The notes under the pieces: model-generated
Database searches by the model: none
Told to the model about the DNA's origin: nothing
The model's input: the letters and a program-made list of their open reading frames with translations, nothing else
In this document: one piece after another, positions 1 to 24,639 of the stretch
Numbering within the stretch: position 1 is the stretch's first letter
Layout of the letters: every line of letters begins with the position of its first letter
Translations under genes and position numbers: made by a program
DNA from: a virus
IMG/VR virus record: IMGVR_UViG_3300030406_005280
Location: 1 to 24,639 of that record
Strand: one strand, 5' to 3'
DNA: 24,639 bases

Positions 1-207
1 GAAAAGGGACATATTCCAAGCAATCTGCGACTTTTGGAGTAAAACACTGTTGTTTTTTGTTGTTTTTAATTCAACAAAGACAGAAATACCATTGTGACAT
101 AAAAATGTATCACACATGCCATTTGAAACTCTATTTTCAATTCTTTGATAATGAGTTTTTGGAGGTAGATTTTTCTTTAACTGCAACCAAAGATTTTTCT
201 CTGTCAT
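1..207 (-). CDS. PD-(D/E)XK nuclease-like protein (VRR-NUC type), 3' part missing
   Basis: The reading frame enters from the left edge, and 69 residues are visible from ATG 207 (a second in-frame ATG lies directly upstream at 210). A conserved-looking GxxD (NGMCD, residues 29-33) is followed about a dozen residues later by FVELK (44-48) and then by Q and W in QIAW. This spacing of an acidic residue, an ExK and a downstream Gln matches the restriction-nuclease-like fold of VRR-NUC or Holliday-junction-resolvase-like phage proteins. The start lies 71 bases inside the small terminase gene, so the two are probably co-translated. A nuclease next to terminase genes fits DNA packaging or recombination-intermediate processing. 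The upstream Shine-Dalgarno is weak. The C-terminal part lies outside the window, so the assignment is provisional. Confidence 0.62.
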   Translation of the reverse strand, partial: MTEKNLWLQLKKNLPPKTHYQRIENRVSNGMCDTFLCHNGISVFVELKTTKNNSVLLQKSQIAWNMSLF

Positions 208-673
208 CATCTACTTTCTTAAATTGACCCTCTACGAAAGCATGAGGATATTCTGATCTAATTTGATGTAGTCTAGAAACAATTTCTTCTCGACTAAGTT
301 TATCAAGTTGATGAGTGTGATTTTGTTCTCGTCTATCAATTGTTAAACCACCTAGTGCAGATCTTATTTTTTCTGCATTTATTGATGCAGAAAATTGACC
401 ATCTTCCTCTGCTTTGTGAGATAATTCAGAAAACCTTTTTAATTGACCAATTAAAGTCACTCCATATCTTCTTTCTCTTTCTTCTCGAAGTTCTTTAATA
501 TATTCAACCACCAAAGGAAAATCTTTTCCATTTAATAATTTAGATGCATGATATCTAGCACTATCTTCTGCATATCCACTTTTAACTGCACATTGTGTGG
601 CAGAATAAATGCCCTCAATGTAGTGTTTAGCAAACTCTTTTTGTCTTGCAGTAAGTTTATTTACATTAGCCAT
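137..673 (-). CDS. terS: Terminase small subunit
   Basis: The 178-residue protein has the typical opening of Terminase_2 small subunits: LTARQKEFAKHYIEG at residues 7-21, then a helix-turn-helix with SATQCAVKSGYAEDSARYHASK (24-45), followed by charged helices. Small terminases bind phage DNA and present it to the large ATPase/nuclease subunit for packaging. ATG 673 is chosen because the longer open frame upstream is Phe/Tyr/Leu-rich and looks non-coding, and because the family motif begins seven residues after this Met. No Shine-Dalgarno precedes it. Instead a good promoter sits so close that the mRNA may begin at the A of the start codon. The C-terminal 23 codons overlap the next gene. The large subunit is not in the window. 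Confidence 0.88.
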   Translation of the reverse strand: MANVNKLTARQKEFAKHYIEGIYSATQCAVKSGYAEDSARYHASKLLNGKDFPLVVEYIKELREERERRYGVTLIGQLKRFSELSHKAEEDGQFSASINAEKIRSALGGLTIDRREQNHTHQLDKLSREEIVSRLHQIRSEYPHAFVEGQFKKVDDDREKSLVAVKEKSTSKNSLSKN

Positions 674-755: not shown

Positions 756-840
756 TGTAGTAGATGTAGTAGATTGTAGTAAAAATAATTAAAAAAAACC
801 TTTAAAAACAACGTCTACTACATTTACTACACTTACTACA
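756..840. repeat. Inverted array of TACTACA iterons
   Basis: On the plus strand, TACTACA occurs at 816, 825 and 834. Its complement TGTAGTA occurs at 756, 765 and 775. Copies within an arm are spaced 9 or 10 bases apart. The two arms are mirror images around a 34-base segment (782-815) that is almost all A and T. Phased iterons flanking an easily melted core are typical of initiator-protein binding at replication origins, but such an array could also be an operator shared by the divergent promoters. Confidence 0.6.
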
Positions 841-906: not shown

Positions 907-957
907 TAATTAATTGCAATTAATTGTTTGACTTTTGATATTCTTTCAGAGTAGAAT
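907..957 (+). promoter_or_regulatory. Early rightward promoter with double CAATTAATTG-type operator
   Basis: TTGACT (928-933) and TAGAAT (952-957) are 18 bases apart, giving a start near 964, upstream of the GGAGG at 977-981. Immediately upstream are TAATTAATTG (907-916) and CAATTAATTG (917-926), two copies one helical turn apart. The same perfect palindrome recurs at three other promoters in the window. Confidence 0.65.
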
Positions 958-7307: not shown

Positions 7308-8748
7308 AACAAAACCATATCAACATCAAAAGGATGCTTTGGTGCATAGTTTCGATAAACGGAACTATGCATACTTTATGGAGATGGGATGTGGTAAGTC
7401 TAAAGTTCTGCTCGACAACATGGCATGGCTTAGACTCCAAAACAAAATAGATTCTGCAATCATTGTGGCTCCCAAGGGAGTGTACAGAAATTGGGAATTG
7501 ACAGAGATCCCGAAACATTTCTTGGATGAAATAGATTACGAGGTATTTACTTGGAGGGCAAATGCAACCAAGTCGCAGAAAGATAATCTGGTTCGGGCCA
7601 CAAAAGAAAGATCAAAATTTAGAATACTTTTAATTAATGTTGAGGGTTTTGCTACACCAAAAGTAAAAAGATATACTGAAGCTTTTATAAAAAATTCAAA
7701 CTTTTTATTAGCAGTAGATGAATCAACAACAATAAAGAATCATCAAGCCAAAAGAACAAAGGCACTAATTAGTCTTGGTAAACAAGCAAGTTACAAAAGA
7801 ATATTAACGGGATCTCCCGTTACAAGATCGCCAATGGATTTGTTTTCTCAATGTTTATTCATGAGTCAAGATCTTTTGGGGTTTGATTCTTATTGGTCTT
7901 TTCAAGGTCGATATGCCGTGACAAGAAGACAAAAGATGGGTGCTCATTCTTTCAATCAAGTTATTGGATATAGAAACCTGGAAGAACTAGCACAAAGACT
8001 AAAAACATTTTCATTTAGAGTTACGAAAGAAAAAGTTTTAAAAGATGTGCCACCAAAAATATACACAACTAGAGAAGTAACATTGTCTACAGAGCAATTA
8101 CAACACTATCAATCCATGAAGAAACATGCATTGACAGTGGTCAATGATGAGTTGGTAAGTGCAACTGAAGTCATGACACAGTTAATAAAGCTGCAACAGT
8201 TACTTTGTGGTTTCATTGTGACCAATGATGGAAAGACAATAGAAGTTAAGAACAACAGAATAAACTGCATGTTAGATGCGATAGAAGAGATGAGTGGTAA
8301 GGTTATTATTTGGGCAAGGTTCAGACATGACATAATCAATATTACAAATGCTCTTAGAAAAAAATATGGACATGCATCTACTGTAAATTATTTCGGAGAT
8401 ACATCTGAAAAAGACAGACAAGATGCAATCTTAGGAATTGAGAACGATCCTAGTGTAAGGTTTTTTGTTGCTAATCCTCAAACGGGAGGCAGAGGCTTGA
8501 CTCTGATCAAGGCAACAAACGTAATTTATTTTTCTAATGATTTTGATTTAGAAAAAAGAATTCAATCTGAGGATCGTAATCATAGATCGGGTCAGAAGAA
8601 TCAAGTCGTGTATGTAGATTTGATAGCTAAAGGCACGATTGATGAGTATATCGTGAAAGTTTTACAGAATAAAATAGTCTTGGCAGGCAAAGCTTTGAAT
8701 GAAGAAGCAAAGAAATGGTTACAAGTTTCTCCAAAAAAAGACAATTAA
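7291..8748 (+). CDS. SNF2-like superfamily II helicase/ATPase
   Basis: The 485-residue protein has the full SF2/SNF2 motif set: a PYQHQ element (9-13), Walker A MGCGKS (32-37), Walker B as DEST with D143-E144 in place of the usual DEAH, motif III TGSP (173-176), and in the second RecA lobe TGGRGLTLIKA and SEDRNHRSGQ (the QxxRxxRxGQ-type motif VI). Such proteins translocate on duplex DNA and remodel protein-DNA complexes or forks. It lies first among the replication genes and may stand in for a fork helicase. ATG 7291 is chosen for AAGGAAG just upstream. The stop codon sits inside a CAATTAATTG site. Confidence 0.92.
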   Translation: MHFKYKTKPYQHQKDALVHSFDKRNYAYFMEMGCGKSKVLLDNMAWLRLQNKIDSAIIVAPKGVYRNWELTEIPKHFLDEIDYEVFTWRANATKSQKDNLVRATKERSKFRILLINVEGFATPKVKRYTEAFIKNSNFLLAVDESTTIKNHQAKRTKALISLGKQASYKRILTGSPVTRSPMDLFSQCLFMSQDLLGFDSYWSFQGRYAVTRRQKMGAHSFNQVIGYRNLEELAQRLKTFSFRVTKEKVLKDVPPKIYTTREVTLSTEQLQHYQSMKKHALTVVNDELVSATEVMTQLIKLQQLLCGFIVTNDGKTIEVKNNRINCMLDAIEEMSGKVIIWARFRHDIINITNALRKKYGHASTVNYFGDTSEKDRQDAILGIENDPSVRFFVANPQTGGRGLTLIKATNVIYFSNDFDLEKRIQSEDRNHRSGQKNQVVYVDLIAKGTIDEYIVKVLQNKIVLAGKALNEEAKKWLQVSPKKDN

Positions 8749-8782
8749 TTGCTGAAAATTACAACAACATGATATATATAAT
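8742..8782 (+). promoter_or_regulatory. Promoter region of the ribbon-helix-helix gene
   Basis: CAATTAATTG (8742-8751) overlaps the helicase stop codon. A perfect TATAAT (8777-8782) preceded by TATA lies 26 bases further on, but no good -35 box is at the right distance, so this promoter may need an activator or be weak. Placed upstream of the regulator, it allows autoregulation. Confidence 0.5.
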
Positions 8783-8813
8783 AAATACGGGCAACAACAC
8801 ATGGGAGCATGAA

Positions 8814-8954
8814 ATGCAAAAATATAGAACAGTAGCTATTCCGATTGAGATCTGGGAAGATCTTAAAAAAATAGCAGAACAAGAGGGTAGATCGTATGCG
8901 AGACAACTTTCTTGGATGATTAAAAATTATTTTGGCAAAAGTATTGACAATTAA
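8814..8954 (+). CDS. Ribbon-helix-helix DNA-binding protein, 46 aa
   Basis: ATG 8814 follows GGGAG; the longer open frame upstream crosses the promoter and the helicase gene. The protein reads MQKYRTVAIPIEIWEDLKKI and continues with a second helix (SYARQLSWMIKNYFGK). A short N-terminal strand (YRTVAIP), helix, turn with EGRS and second helix match the Arc/MetJ/CopG ribbon-helix-helix fold, which dimerises and inserts the strand pair in the major groove of short palindromes. CAATTAATTG flanks the gene on both sides, and its stop codon lies within one copy. A likely regulator of the phage early and replication promoters; binding is inferred. Confidence 0.8.
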   Translation: MQKYRTVAIPIEIWEDLKKIAEQEGRSYARQLSWMIKNYFGKSIDN

Positions 8955-10431: not shown

Positions 10432-10488
10432 TTTCGGGTAGAAGTCCTCCTTTTTCATTTTCTTCTACCCGAAAACCATTTGTGAGGA
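10432..10488 (+). promoter_or_regulatory. Hairpin with anti-Shine-Dalgarno loop before the primase gene
   Basis: TTTCGGGTAGAAG (10432-10444) and CTTCTACCCGAAA (10462-10474) are perfect complements over 13 bases. The 17-base loop begins TCCTCCTTTTT, so TCCTC (10445-10449) can pair with GAGGA (10484-10488), the primase ribosome site, to make a pseudoknot. No U-run follows in either direction, so it is a poor terminator. Translational control of primase is inferred. Confidence 0.55.
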
Positions 10489-10493
10489 ATAAA

Positions 10494-12023
10494 ATGAACA
10501 ATGGTCAAAGGTTTATGGATGCTTTTCAAGGTTTTTCTGAGGCTCATGGAGAGACAAAGATCTCTCAAGAAAGAAGACAAGGGAAACAAGCCGCCAATTC
10601 CTATATTAAAAGAACTCCTTTAACATTAGAGTTGATCAATGGTCATCTTGATGGTGGACTTGGTGTTGGCTCCATACCTATTAATGAAGAAAATAAATGC
10701 AAGTTTGGTGCATTAGATATTGATACATATCCTATTGATCATCTTGCCCTAGATAAGAAATTAAGAAAACTTAAGATACCATGCATTGTTTGTAGAAGTA
10801 AAAGTGGTGGAGCACATATCTTTTTCTTTCTAACAGATTGGATGAATGCAGGCGAGTTTAGAGATAAAGCATCAGAGATTGCATCTGTAATAGGTTTTGG
10901 TAACTGCGAGATATTTCCAAAACAAGAACAGATATTAGTAGAACGAGGGGATGTAGGTAACTTTATTAACCTACCCTATCATAACAAAGATCAAACCATG
11001 AGGTATGCCTTTAAAGAAAACGGAGAGGTTGCTACCTTCGAAGAATTTTTAGATTTAGTTGATAAAAGAAAAGTAAAACCAAATTCCTTTTTTAAACTAC
11101 AAGTAGGATCAAAAAAGACAGAACCTTTTCCAGAAGGTCCACCTTGTTTAAATGTCATGGCACTAAATGGCATTGGAGAGGGATCAAGGAACATGTCTTT
11201 ATTTAATTATGGTGCAATGTTTAAGAAGATGGATCCCGATAATTGGAAGGCGCTGCTTGAAAAATTTAACATTGATTACTGTACTAGTCCCGTATCTGCA
11301 CAAGAAATAGTTCAGATACAAGGTCAGTTAGAAAAGAAAGAATATTTTTATACATGTGGACAAGAGCCTATCAAAGCACATTGTAATAAATCTTTATGTA
11401 AAAGAAGAAAGTATGGCATTGGTGTGAATGTAGATGCAGTAGAAATAACAGGTATATCTATTGTTAAATCAGAACCAAGGGTGTTCTTTGCAGATCTGGA
11501 TGGCAGACGATTAGAGTTAACAAGTTTTGATTTACAATCACAATCTAAGTTTCAGATAGCATGTCTGGAACAACAAAATTTTATGCCACCAAAAATAAAA
11601 GAGAGCGATTGGCAGTTGTTAATTAACGGATTATTAGCAGAGGCTAATGAAATAGAAGTCCCAGAAGAACTAACTTACAAAGGACATTTTAATCAATTGC
11701 TTGAGTCTTTTTGTTATGGTCGAGTACAAGCACAATCGGCAGAAGAACTATTGGTTGGTAAACCATGGATCATGGAAGGATTAGTTTATTTTAAGATAGA
11801 TTCTTTCATAGAATTTTTGAGACAAAAAGGATTTACATATTATTCTAAAGGTCAGATTCAAGAAAGAATAAAGGAAATAAATAATGGGGATAAATGTAGT
11901 GATCCAAGATATTTCAAAACAACAGATGGTAAACAAAAGTCAATTCGTGTTTGGTGGGTTCCCGAAGTGAGAGAAGATGTTGAAATACCTAAAGTAGAAT
12001 TTGAAGAGGAGGTTCCGTTCTAA
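10494..12023 (+). CDS. Archaeo-eukaryotic-type (AEP) DNA primase
   Basis: The 509-residue protein has the three AEP active-site motifs: GALDIDTY with D75 and D77, SGGAHIFFF with H108, and EIFPK with E139. These coordinate metal and nucleotide for primer synthesis. Downstream a Cys/His cluster (C288, H296, C297, C302 within a C-x7-HC-x4-C pattern) resembles a metal-binding primase module. The C-terminus is acidic and closes EEEVPF, like the tail of the SSB-like protein upstream. No helicase domain is fused, so the helicase must come from elsewhere. ATG 10494 is chosen because GAGGA is five bases upstream; the in-frame GTG 10482 is inside the ribosome site. Confidence 0.88.
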   Translation: MNNGQRFMDAFQGFSEAHGETKISQERRQGKQAANSYIKRTPLTLELINGHLDGGLGVGSIPINEENKCKFGALDIDTYPIDHLALDKKLRKLKIPCIVCRSKSGGAHIFFFLTDWMNAGEFRDKASEIASVIGFGNCEIFPKQEQILVERGDVGNFINLPYHNKDQTMRYAFKENGEVATFEEFLDLVDKRKVKPNSFFKLQVGSKKTEPFPEGPPCLNVMALNGIGEGSRNMSLFNYGAMFKKMDPDNWKALLEKFNIDYCTSPVSAQEIVQIQGQLEKKEYFYTCGQEPIKAHCNKSLCKRRKYGIGVNVDAVEITGISIVKSEPRVFFADLDGRRLELTSFDLQSQSKFQIACLEQQNFMPPKIKESDWQLLINGLLAEANEIEVPEELTYKGHFNQLLESFCYGRVQAQSAEELLVGKPWIMEGLVYFKIDSFIEFLRQKGFTYYSKGQIQERIKEINNGDKCSDPRYFKTTDGKQKSIRVWWVPEVREDVEIPKVEFEEEVPF

Positions 12024-12289
12024 TGGAGATGTTAGTAGCTTTTTGTGTAATTTTTACTGAACAATGTAGGTACAGAGGTGGAGATGCTTTGTGTAGTTTC
12101 TGGGAACCTGGAGTTGTGTATAAAACAAGACAAGAATGTGTTGAAGGTAAAAAATTAATCGAAGAGTATTTAGAAGAGGAATTATGGAGATTGTACCCAG
12201 AGGCAGTAAAGATAAATGCAAAGGGGGTGTGTCCATTCGAAAATAAAGCACCAACAGGTAGAAACAAAGGACAAGGAAATAGAGAATGA
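12023..12289 (+). CDS. Cysteine-containing small protein, 88 aa
   Basis: Coupled to the primase by TAATG, with GAGGAGG upstream in the primase end. The N-terminus MEMLVAFCVIF is hydrophobic but short. Five Cys follow at 8, 15, 24, 39 and 69, the last in KGVCPF; the C-terminus is Gly/Asn/Lys-rich. It could be membrane-tethered or exported with disulfides, or simply a small metal-binding protein. It shares a rough two-Cys layout with the 60-residue gene at 16409-16591. No family is assigned. Confidence 0.72.
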   Translation: MEMLVAFCVIFTEQCRYRGGDALCSFWEPGVVYKTRQECVEGKKLIEEYLEEELWRLYPEAVKINAKGVCPFENKAPTGRNKGQGNRE

Positions 12290-13818
12290 GTAACGAAATA
12301 GCAATCTATGGACCACCTGGAACTGGTAAAACAACAAAACTTTTAGATATTATAGAGGATGCTATTGCAAATGGAGTAGATCCTCAAAGGATAGCTTTCT
12401 TATCTTTTACAAGAAAAGCTGCACAAGAAGCTGTTGATAGAGCTTGTGTTAAATTTAATCTAGATCAAAAGCATTTTCATCACTTTAGAACATTACATTC
12501 TCTTGCTTTTCGTTGGGTTGGAATGAAAACAGAAGATGTAATCAAACCACCCGACATGAGGTTTTTAGGCAAGAAACTTGGAGTTGTTTTTCAAAAAGAA
12601 GAAAAAATAAATATAGAAGAGGGCGACATGTTTACTCCAGGGTCAAGTGACGGAGATAAATATTTCTATATATATAATATGTCTAGACTAAAAGGCACTG
12701 ATCTAATGGATGAATTTGATTCTTTTGGAGACATGTCTTTGAGTAGAGCATACATGCCTACTGTTGCAGAAGCATATCAAGATTTCAAAAAGAAAAATTT
12801 TAAATTAGATTTTACAGACATGTTAATTAAGTTCTTAGAACAAGGAACGGGGCCTGACTTAGATTTATTAATTGTAGATGAGGCACAAGATTTAGTTCCT
12901 ATACAATGGAGAATGGTCAAGGAATGTTTGTTACCCAATACTAAGAAAGCATACTATGCTGGGGATGACGATCAATGTATTTTCAATTGGGCAGGCGCAA
13001 ACGTAAATAATTTTTTAAACTGTGCAAAAGAATCTATAGTACTAGATCAATCTTACAGAGTTCCATACACTGTTTGGTCTGTTGCAAGAAGCATTATAAG
13101 AAAAGTTAAAACAAGAAAACAAAAGGAATACAAGCCAAAGGAAGAAGAGGGCAATGTTTCTTATTATTACGATGCTATGGACATAAATTTTAACAGAGGA
13201 GAGTGGTATGTGTTAGCAAGAACAAACAGAATACTTTCTGATATAGGAAATAAATTACAAGATGAAGGATATATGTTCTGGAGGGAGGGGTCTGGATGGT
13301 CTGTATCTGAAAAGTTAATTAACAGTATAGAGGTGTGGATACAATTATGCAAAAATCAAAGTCTAAATGTACAAAATTGGGTAGAGTTTTCGAGGAGAAC
13401 AAAAAAAGGGGTCATTGGTCATGGTGGAAAAAGAAAAATAGAATTATTGGATCAAGACAGAACATATACTTTGGACGATTTATTAAAGAGCGAATTGGGT
13501 TATCTGTTAAACTTGAACAAAGAAATGATGTGGTACGATGTTCTAAACATGACAGAACAACAACGAATATATATTACCTCTGCAAGAAGAAGGGGAGAGA
13601 GAATATTAACAAAGAAACCTAGAATTCGTTTGTCAACAATACACAAAGCTAAAGGTGGAGAGGCAGACAATGTAGCTTTGCTTTTAGATTGTCCCAAAGT
13701 AATAAAGGAAAAAGGAGATGAAGACAGTGAGCATAGAGTATTTTATGTAGGAGTAACTCGTGCTCGTAAGTCTTTACATATAGTTGAAAGCAAAAGTGAA
13801 AGTGGATACAAAATATGA
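12286..13818 (+). CDS. UvrD/Rep-like superfamily I DNA helicase
   Basis: The 510-residue protein shows SF1A motifs in order: Walker A GPPGTGKT (9-16), FTRKAAQEA (Ia), RTLHSLAF, Walker B IVDEAQDL, GDDDQCIFNWAGA (III), LDQSYRVP (IV), TIHKAKGGEADNV (V) and FYVGVTRARKSLHIV (VI). Such enzymes unwind DNA 3' to 5' and assist rolling-circle, repair or fork progression. It is shorter than cellular UvrD (about 720 aa), with reduced accessory domains, as is common in phages. It starts in an ATGA overlap behind AAGGA and is followed by another ATGA overlap. Confidence 0.94.
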   Translation: MSNEIAIYGPPGTGKTTKLLDIIEDAIANGVDPQRIAFLSFTRKAAQEAVDRACVKFNLDQKHFHHFRTLHSLAFRWVGMKTEDVIKPPDMRFLGKKLGVVFQKEEKINIEEGDMFTPGSSDGDKYFYIYNMSRLKGTDLMDEFDSFGDMSLSRAYMPTVAEAYQDFKKKNFKLDFTDMLIKFLEQGTGPDLDLLIVDEAQDLVPIQWRMVKECLLPNTKKAYYAGDDDQCIFNWAGANVNNFLNCAKESIVLDQSYRVPYTVWSVARSIIRKVKTRKQKEYKPKEEEGNVSYYYDAMDINFNRGEWYVLARTNRILSDIGNKLQDEGYMFWREGSGWSVSEKLINSIEVWIQLCKNQSLNVQNWVEFSRRTKKGVIGHGGKRKIELLDQDRTYTLDDLLKSELGYLLNLNKEMMWYDVLNMTEQQRIYITSARRRGERILTKKPRIRLSTIHKAKGGEADNVALLLDCPKVIKEKGDEDSEHRVFYVGVTRARKSLHIVESKSESGYKI

Positions 13819-14165
13819 AAACGTATGAAGAAGCAAAAACAGAATTACTTTTGAAGCTTAAATATTTAGAAGGAACAATTAAATTTTTAAAAGAAAATTC
13901 TTATTTTGAGAAATTTTGTCTTAACTGTAGGTCAATTATGAAAGTTCCAGTAAATGGAGAAAGAGGTACAGAGCGAAAATTTTGTAATGATTATTGTAGA
14001 CGAAACTACCATTATAAAAATCGTTTAACAGCGAGAGAAAAACAAATTGTGCATTTAAGACAACAAGGTAAAACTTTAGTCGAAATTGGTAAGCAGTTCG
14101 ATATATCAAAACAAGCTATTTCAGTTATTTTACAAAAGGTTGAAAAGAAAAATGAAAAGAGATGA
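13815..14165 (+). CDS. Zinc-finger plus sigma-region-4-like HTH protein, 116 aa
   Basis: Residues 1-30 are helical and charged; C35, C38, C57 and C61 (CLNC and CNDYC) form a zinc site of the kind seen in small treble-clef fingers. Residues 72-109, with LTAREKQIVHLRQQGKTLVE and then IGKQFDISKQAISVILQKV, are a clear helix-turn-helix like LuxR or sigma factor region 4. Binding DNA is therefore likely, as a transcription regulator, possibly of the convergent late genes. It starts in the helicase stop (ATGA) and overlaps the next gene by 14 bases. Confidence 0.8.
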   Translation: MKTYEEAKTELLLKLKYLEGTIKFLKENSYFEKFCLNCRSIMKVPVNGERGTERKFCNDYCRRNYHYKNRLTAREKQIVHLRQQGKTLVEIGKQFDISKQAISVILQKVEKKNEKR

Positions 14166-16315: not shown

Positions 16316-16384
16316 CCCACTTATCGTAATCGTGTAAAAACAAAGGTACTTCTGGGGTACAATCACACACGGACACTTTGTTTC

Positions 16385-16418
16385 GGCTCTGTGTGGGCAT
16401 CCTAGAGCCTAGTTTTTT
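16385..16418 (+). terminator. Intrinsic terminator of the replication operon
   Basis: GGCTCT (16385-16390) and AGAGCC (16404-16409) form a stem around a 13-base loop, followed after TAG by six T residues (16413-16418). It lies 70 bases after the polymerase stop and overlaps the last codons of the convergent minus-strand gene. On the minus strand no T-run follows, so it acts only rightward. Confidence 0.7.
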
Positions 16419-16591
16419 CGGACAGGCTTACAATATGCAGTAATTTTAGCCATTTTGCCATCTAACAGTGGCACATCGGGTTGATTGTTCAAACGTCTGG
16501 CAAAATACAAACAAGTATTAATATTTTCAAATCTTTGTGTCTGATCTACCACTCTTTCGTTGAGCATAAAGATCAGAAGAAACTCTATCAT
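16409..16591 (-). CDS. Conserved small phage protein with hydrophobic N-terminus, 60 aa
   Basis: The protein starts MIEFLLIFML, then has a polar part with NINTCLYFARRLNNQ (24-38) and ends KITAYCKPVRKN. I recall this TCLYFA-RL ... YCKPV pattern from many marine phage genomes as an unannotated small protein close to the lysis or structural genes. The 10-residue hydrophobic start is short for a membrane helix but could be a signal or anchor; the two Cys could be disulfide-bonded. The start overlaps the preceding stop (ATGA). A lysis accessory role is possible but unproven. Confidence 0.82.
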   Translation of the reverse strand: MIEFLLIFMLNERVVDQTQRFENINTCLYFARRLNNQPDVPLLDGKMAKITAYCKPVRKN

Positions 16592-23817: not shown

Positions 23818-24639
23818 TATGTAGGTCTCACTCCCATATTAAATAAGTTACCTATTCCGCCTGCACTACCAGCCGCACCTAGACCTGCAATACCAAGTCC
23901 TAATAATTGTGATGTTCTGCTTGGTGGTGGTGTAGTAGTAGTTGAATATGTTTGTTGCAGTGCTGGTACACCTCTAAAGATATCAGACATAAATCCTATT
24001 CTCTGGAAAGGTAGTGCTTGTTGTGCTAACTGATTAGCTCTTGCAACGTCAAGCTCTCTTTGTCCTTGTTGTTGTTGCAATCCACCAATGCCTAATAAAG
24101 TGTTGACATCTTGAACACCCATCTGTTGTCCTAGTTGTCCTAGACCAGCAGTTTGAACACCCAGACCAGCAACTGTCTGACCTAACTGTCCAGTTAGTTG
24201 TGCTTGTCTTAATTGTTGTTGCGCTGCTTGTTGTGCTAAGTTTTGTGCTTGTTGAAAACCAGCAGATCTTAGTTGTGCTCCAGTTCTTGCTTGTTGATCC
24301 ATAACATCAGCAGCTATCTGTCCTTGTAATACTGCTTGTCTTGAACCACCAAATGCACCTTGTCCAGCAGCTCTTGCTTGTGCTTGTAATTGCTGTTGTG
24401 CTCCTTTATCTGCAATGTCTTGTTGTGTTGTTGCAATTACATCTTCCATAAAAGGATTCATGAACTGTTGATAGCTAGTTGGATCTATTCCTGCTGCAGC
24501 AACTCTTTGTTGTGCAGTTCCTAATTGTCCTATGCCTTGACCAACAGCCTCGGCTCCTTGTTGCAGAAAAGGTTGAAATGCACCTACACCTTGAGTGGCT
24601 CTTGTTATTGCATCTCTTTGTCCTTGTGAAAGTCCCGCT
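23817..24639 (-). CDS. Gln/Ala-rich virion protein, 5' end beyond the window
   Basis: The frame is open to the right edge, so the Met at 24461 is internal; translating 24462-24638 continues the same protein (for example AAGIDPTSYQQFMNPFMEDV across that Met). At least 273 residues are present. The pattern FMNPFMEDVI, then ARAAGQGAFGGSRQAVLQGQ (in part) and long Gln/Ala helices is one I recall from tailed marine phages, where such proteins sit beside internal virion or tail components. The C-terminus is Thr/Pro then Gly-rich and hydrophobic (QLLGLGIAGLGAAGSAGG), which could insert in a membrane. Its stop overlaps the next start by one base. Confidence 0.78.
   Translation of the reverse strand, partial: AGLSQGQRDAITRATQGVGAFQPFLQQGAEAVGQGIGQLGTAQQRVAAAGIDPTSYQQFMNPFMEDVIATTQQDIADKGAQQQLQAQARAAGQGAFGGSRQAVLQGQIAADVMDQQARTGAQLRSAGFQQAQNLAQQAAQQQLRQAQLTGQLGQTVAGLGVQTAGLGQLGQQMGVQDVNTLLGIGGLQQQQGQRELDVARANQLAQQALPFQRIGFMSDIFRGVPALQQTYSTTTTPPPSRTSQLLGLGIAGLGAAGSAGGIGNLFNMGVRPT

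Follow-up and report, generated by a model that had tools for sequence, protein, structure and literature searches.

The window, i.e., the whole stretch of DNA analyzed (24,639 nucleotides), covers 24.6 kb out of a viral record of 26.05 kb. Its largest intergenic region is the gap at 674-987, which is flanked by divergent genes. To the left of this gap lie the gene of the terminase small subunit (TerS) and a small ORF matching phrog_2165, a phage family named DNA helicase. To the right is an early operon of small ORFs followed by genes for a cytosine methyltransferase (MTase), an SNF2-like helicase, an archaeo-eukaryotic-type (AEP) primase, a UvrD-like helicase, and a family A polymerase (PolA). 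An earlier note, made from this single sequence, had described the gap as the only sizeable intergenic region. It is indeed the largest and lies between divergent genes, but another gap, about 270 bases long, is present at 16316-16587, located between the convergent PolA gene and a 213-aa ORF, where the GC skew changes back. The features discussed below are as follows.

137-673, minus strand: TerS (Terminase_2), conserved left neighbor of the array
756-781, minus strand: left arm of the array, three units, TGTAGTA on the plus strand; layout kept in relatives
782-815, no strand: core of 34 bases, variable among relatives in sequence and A/T content
816-840, plus strand: right arm, three TACTACA units; the more uniform arm of the two in relatives
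841-885, no strand: A/T tract, 82% A/T in the window, candidate unwinding element
928-957, plus strand: sigma-70-like early promoter TTGACT-18-TAGAAT at the start of the rightward operon, proposed from its consensus match
10482-12023, plus strand: AEP (TOTE-type) primase of 513 aa, proposed initiator from profile, fold, and covariation
11664-11966, plus strand: winged-helix domain in the predicted model, primase residues 395-495
11898-11966, plus strand: wing hairpin, primase residues 473-495, holding the covarying residues 475, 477, 485, and 487

The array at 756-840 consists of six exact 7-mers in a 3+3 inverted arrangement. TGTAGTA starts at 756, 765, and 775 (successive spacing of 9 and 10), and TACTACA starts at 816, 825, and 834 (9 and 9). 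The left-arm unit can be read as TGT followed by a variable AGTA and is directed at the core. Multiple short repeats spaced at close to the helical turn form the pattern of iterons. Outside the array, only one further copy of TGTAGTA/TACTACA was present in 24.6 kb (at 23931). A comparable 3+3 array was not found in any of 300 dinucleotide shuffles of the window, and a general detector of 3+3 inverted arrays run over the window gave 756-840 as its sole match. An Rfam search gave no match. The six copies, their positions, and the 34-base core agree with the earlier note, but the note had swapped the orientation and spacing of the two arms, and the core that it called nearly pure A/T measured 82% A/T.

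Searching viral contigs with TerS and with the primase yielded several hundred relatives of the locus, and longer stretches were retrieved for many of these records. A strict test, consisting of a right-arm triple plus a left copy, was passed by 86 of 101 distinct regions upstream of TerS and by none of the shuffled regions; the failures were mostly near-misses among those listed. The conservation that had been proposed as a check was therefore confirmed for the layout of the array. The spacing in relatives was 8 to 10 and then 9 to 12 in the left arm and 8 to 9 for both steps in the right arm. In most relatives the core was 34/35 or 25/26 bases long, two lengths that differ by roughly one helical turn. 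Its A/T content ranged from 50 to 85%, so the core is not conserved as the melting region that it had been taken for. What is conserved is the A/T tract that follows the right arm: these 45 bases had a mean of 80% A/T in relatives versus 58% for the loci containing them. This right-flank composition corresponds to the A/T-rich region adjoining the repeats of iteron origins, and the tract may have an unwinding role.

A core motif near (GA)TAAGGGTTT was common to the arrays of L239, L336, L532, L495, and L564, which have several unit types, and is perhaps the site of a second protein. This motif was absent from the A/T-rich AGTA, GGTA, and AGAA cores of the window's clade. When the detectors were run on more distant relatives, bacterial-genome contigs of at most 53% identity, no array was found, some of the flanks being perhaps too short. 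Primase relatives of 36 to 39% identity were encoded on SAR11/Pelagibacterales genome contigs (L591, L592, L606, L607, and L625), mostly single-cell assemblies. The isolate with the closest primase is phage DSL-LC04 (38% identical), in which the detectors found no array. An intergenic stretch of this phage (L576:21870-21960) has GGTGCGGTTA-like direct repeats at a spacing of about 10 bases, possibly a different iteron cluster.

The array of the window folds well as single-stranded DNA (z = -5), which would suit a hairpin or cruciform recognized by its shape, comparable to the stem-loop proposed for pRN1. Across relatives, however, the inter-unit spacers paired no better than shuffles and were often unequal in length between the arms, and a stem-loop maintained by pairing, as in the pRN1 type, was not seen. 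The direct copies within an arm are also alike, which recognition by shape would not need. Hairpin recognition is considered highly improbable.

Within 756-840, DnaA boxes were absent even when 1 mismatch was allowed, which agrees with the earlier note and does not fit a DnaA-dependent origin. Two exact DnaA boxes are located in the window at 12115 and 20935. Boxes with 1 mismatch near the array (657 and 875) were at chance level, and boxes with up to 1 mismatch showed no excess over chance in the window. Sigma-70-like matches around the array were also about as frequent as in shuffles (3 found versus 2.6 expected). The GC skew of the window changed sign twice, once at the array and once near 16.2 kb, but it follows the direction of transcription and is not independent evidence for an origin.

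The repeat unit differed among close relatives. Its formula is [TC]G[TGA]NNNN, with four variable bases at the end, and at least 20 distinct types were present, a number derived from a list of 25 five-base forms in which a few entries repeat a unit in a shifted register. All copies of the unit were swapped between phages whose other genes were 90 to 100% identical, and the flanks were conserved. The window has the unit TGTAGTA and L318 has TGTGAAA, while their helicases, primase, and polymerase are 97 to 100% identical. The two primases differ at 17 positions, 15 of which lie within residues 412-511. L326 and L329, which have different backgrounds, share the GTAA unit and have an identical primase C-terminal domain. 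This wholesale switching in step with the primase wing was not visible from the one sequence on which the earlier note was based. Several arrays were heterogeneous in the left arm, and this was counted against the reading that we prefer. In the TerS-upstream arrays of L564, L570, L403, L381, and L371, the right arm was uniform and the left arm was mixed. These arrays are possible intermediates of a concerted change, as if it were spreading from the right arm.

Three other proteins were considered as binders of the array and rejected. The small helix-turn-helix (HTH) ORF at 13815-14165 was absent from the majority of the relatives covered by the gene matrix. The Arc-like ORF at 8715-8954 was 99% identical in L318 despite the different unit. 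For TerS, the HTH was often unchanged while the unit switched.

The same behavior of TerS bears on the possibility that the array is a packaging site (pac/cos) bound by the product of the adjoining gene, for which the adjacency and conservation of TerS, its HTH, and the scores of some TerS columns in association screens would speak. The TerS HTH was identical across the GAAA, AGTA, and GTAA units (L146, L147, and L149) and across AACG, GTTG, and others (L193, L198, L201, L203, L347, and L430), and no TerS column matched the effect of the primase wing. A packaging site is thus a very unlikely explanation.

To relate the unit type to protein residues, arrays and primases were paired in 52 contigs; a few units missed or misframed by the detector were assigned by hand from the sequences. 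In close pairs, the greatest excess of substitutions in pairs with different units was at primase residues 477, 475, 487, and 485. Residues 475, 477, 485, and 487 were all identical in 28 of 34 related pairs with the same unit and in 0 of 128 with different units, counts that omit three mosaic contigs (L359, L362, and L476). In each of these three contigs, the sequence switches abruptly somewhere between the array and a primase that does not match it; either chimeric assembly or genuine recombination could be the cause. When unit labels were permuted within clusters of at least 85% identity with the mosaics kept, none of 2,000 permutations reached the observed value. Among seven long genes, the primase showed the strongest covariation with the unit, and primase 487, 477, and 475 ranked on top by effect among approximately 1,700 variable columns. 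The P value was 0.0003 for each, the floor of the test; the P values serve as guides, since the tests were designed after the wing pattern was seen and the genome pairs are not independent. Other scoring columns had smaller effects (primase 202, o9058 16, and TerS 91). A first, cruder association screen, in which columns of the MTase (21 sequences) and TerS outranked the wing, was confounded by relatedness; it was replaced by the within-cluster permutation test, from which the MTase was left out.

The association was also observed between distant primases. In primases less than 80% identical, residues 475 and 477 both agreed in 39% of the pairs with the same unit and in 1% of the pairs with at least two base differences in the unit, the background identity being similar. 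The AGAA unit recurred with V475/K477/S487 in primases 55 to 57% identical, and AGTA recurred with P475 in primases at 65% identity. Residue 475 left 0.24 of 1.55 bits for unit base 4: K475 occurred with C at this base (5/5), L475 with T (2/2), and V, H, P, or I475 with A. Q475 occurred with a non-T base 3 in 5 of 5 cases, and base 3 was T in all 44 others. Between the AGAA and AGCA types, the wing difference was essentially S487 versus N487. Prediction of the unit from the wing residues gave no clear gain over overall similarity when donors were less than 75% identical, and the code therefore depends on the background.

The phages are mosaic, and the array and primase are 8 to 10 kb apart in one early region, so that joint exchange of the array and the primase C terminus by recombination or shared descent might produce an association without contact. 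The genes between the array and the primase, however, did not track the unit comparably, the same residues and units recurred in clades 55 to 65% identical, and the signals clustered on alternate wing residues. Such a by-product of exchange is regarded as improbable to a high degree. The covariation is strong support for the proposed recognition of the array through the wing of the primase.

The primase matched Pfam PF22548 (59.9 bits; cutoff, 27) and phrog_21866, annotated as primase (1.5e-84), and its model aligned with the CAPP Prim-Pol 7nqd (Z, 19.3; root mean square deviation [rmsd], 3.5; 190 residues). The N-terminal domain thus has both the AEP-TOTE profile and the Prim-Pol fold, with putative priming activity. 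AlphaFold2 models, built on 57 and 62 relatives, predicted a C-terminal winged helix with pLDDT of >90 in the domain core. The predicted domain has a three-helix core (399-412, 439-448, and 456-466) and a wing hairpin with strands at 473-479 and 485-494. Residues 475, 477, 485, and 487 occupy alternate positions in both predicted wing strands and are expected to share one face. Among relatives, the canonical helix (454-467) was largely invariant.

A structural search with the C-terminal domain gave 45 PDB chains with Z of ≥5 and none with Z of ≥8, and the listed ones were mainly winged-helix proteins. The top match was TcpK bound to oriT (Z, 7.1; rmsd, 3.0; 82 residues), a middling Z that was tied with other winged helices. 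TcpK of pCW3 binds tandem 9-nt repeats by placing its wing in the major groove, and its canonical helix is hardly used (PMC6137059). The two proteins may thus be alike in wing-based reading of tandem repeats. TcpK differs as a conjugation accessory protein acting at oriT (PMC6137059), and sequence kinship was not detected. Sequence searches of solved structures with the primase or its C-terminal domain gave no convincing match. The match could reflect a common arrangement, and the resemblance is suggestive as an analogy, not as evidence of kinship.

Covariation reveals specificity and not what the binding does, and the primase, or its winged helix, might act on the array as an operator, regulating the divergent early and TerS promoters while replication starts elsewhere. 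The same covariation would be expected in that case, and the array does sit between divergent genes, upstream of the promoter-like sequence at 928-957. The candidate binder, however, is a replication enzyme and not a repressor, and a conserved A/T tract lies beside the array. Regulation in place of replication is considered unlikely; a dual role is possible and would be compatible with an origin.

From the nature of the proposed binder as a replication enzyme, the layout, and the A/T tract, we infer that the array is a replication origin. Taken with the covariation, the array probably represents six sites for the C-terminal winged helix of the primase that most likely serve as the origin. The initiator-bound origin suggested in the earlier note, with a phage-specific initiator, remains the best reading, but the likely binder is the winged helix of the AEP primase and not a small HTH protein. 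The wing strands would read the four variable bases via residues 475, 477, 485, and 487. Physical binding to the three inward-pointing units on each side, spaced at close to one helical turn, would recruit primases to the origin. Strand opening and priming may then start at the conserved A/T tract beyond the right arm, and priming would serve the SNF2-like and UvrD-like helicases and the PolA of the phage. In evolution, the unit has been replaced in all copies along with the wing, which would result in many distinct origin types among close relatives.

No description of this system was found in searches of an open-access library, and one may nevertheless exist. Its closest parallels are the SaPI, PLE, and geminivirus systems. 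The SaPI Rep/iteron origin is similar in that the C-terminal domain of an initiator encoded by a mobile element recognizes short iterons and the element also encodes an AEP-family primase (PMC7581432). The SaPI initiator is a helicase, the origin is downstream of the helicase gene, and the primase is separate (PMC7581432), whereas the origin-binding domain of the window phage seems to be part of the primase itself. For the PLE RepA/origin and ICP1 Odn, the DNA-binding domain of the initiator also covaries with the origin, modules are exchanged among close relatives, and origin-directed attack is a selective force (PMC8263062, PMC7145576). PLE differs in having a RepA_N initiator, semipalindromic iterons of about 30 bp, and two module types (PMC8263062, PMC7145576), compared with an AEP primase winged helix, 7-base units at 8- to 11-base spacing, and at least 20 types here. 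Closely related geminiviruses differ in their short iterons of 5 to 6 bases, and the Rep regions that interact with the iterons evolve fast along with them (PMC12548392). These are single-stranded DNA plant viruses with a rolling-circle Rep, and both the protein and the replication mode are unrelated (PMC12548392).

Two other AEP enzymes were compared. The primase-polymerase of the marine phage NrS-1 needs an 8-nt recognition sequence on the template, and this site is present once per strand at the genome center, the suggested origin (PMC7102993). NrS-1 differs by its C-terminal helicase domain and by two single sites instead of a 3+3 array (PMC7102993), and the structural match of its Prim/Pol to the window primase was weak (Z, 5.4). 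ORF904 of pRN1 combines an AEP primase and a C-terminal winged helix in one polypeptide, at a proposed origin, but the origin is a large stem-loop without iterons and an SF3 helicase domain intervenes (PMC4234260).

An origin and its initiator are thus proposed for a phage group that is mostly uncultivated; the arrangement, a primase carrying an origin-reading domain, is proposed as new. On balance, we lean towards the view that in this marine phage family the AEP primase itself is the origin-recognition protein, reading a variable tetranucleotide via alternate wing residues, and that coupled change would lead to many incompatible origin types. The many natural unit/wing pairs provide a data set on specificity change in winged-helix DNA binding and include near single-residue/single-base pairs (AGAA with S487 and AGCA with N487). 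If the proposal is true, these pairs would be a natural protein-DNA recognition code. Pressure from satellites, competing phages, or origin-directed defenses may lie behind the coupled change of wing and array. The fast switching of the unit points to attacks on replication specificity in nature. One parallel is the conflict of ICP1 with PLE, in which nucleases are directed at the origin (PMC8263062); another is the inhibition of lambda by extra copies of the lambda origin (PMC4488673).
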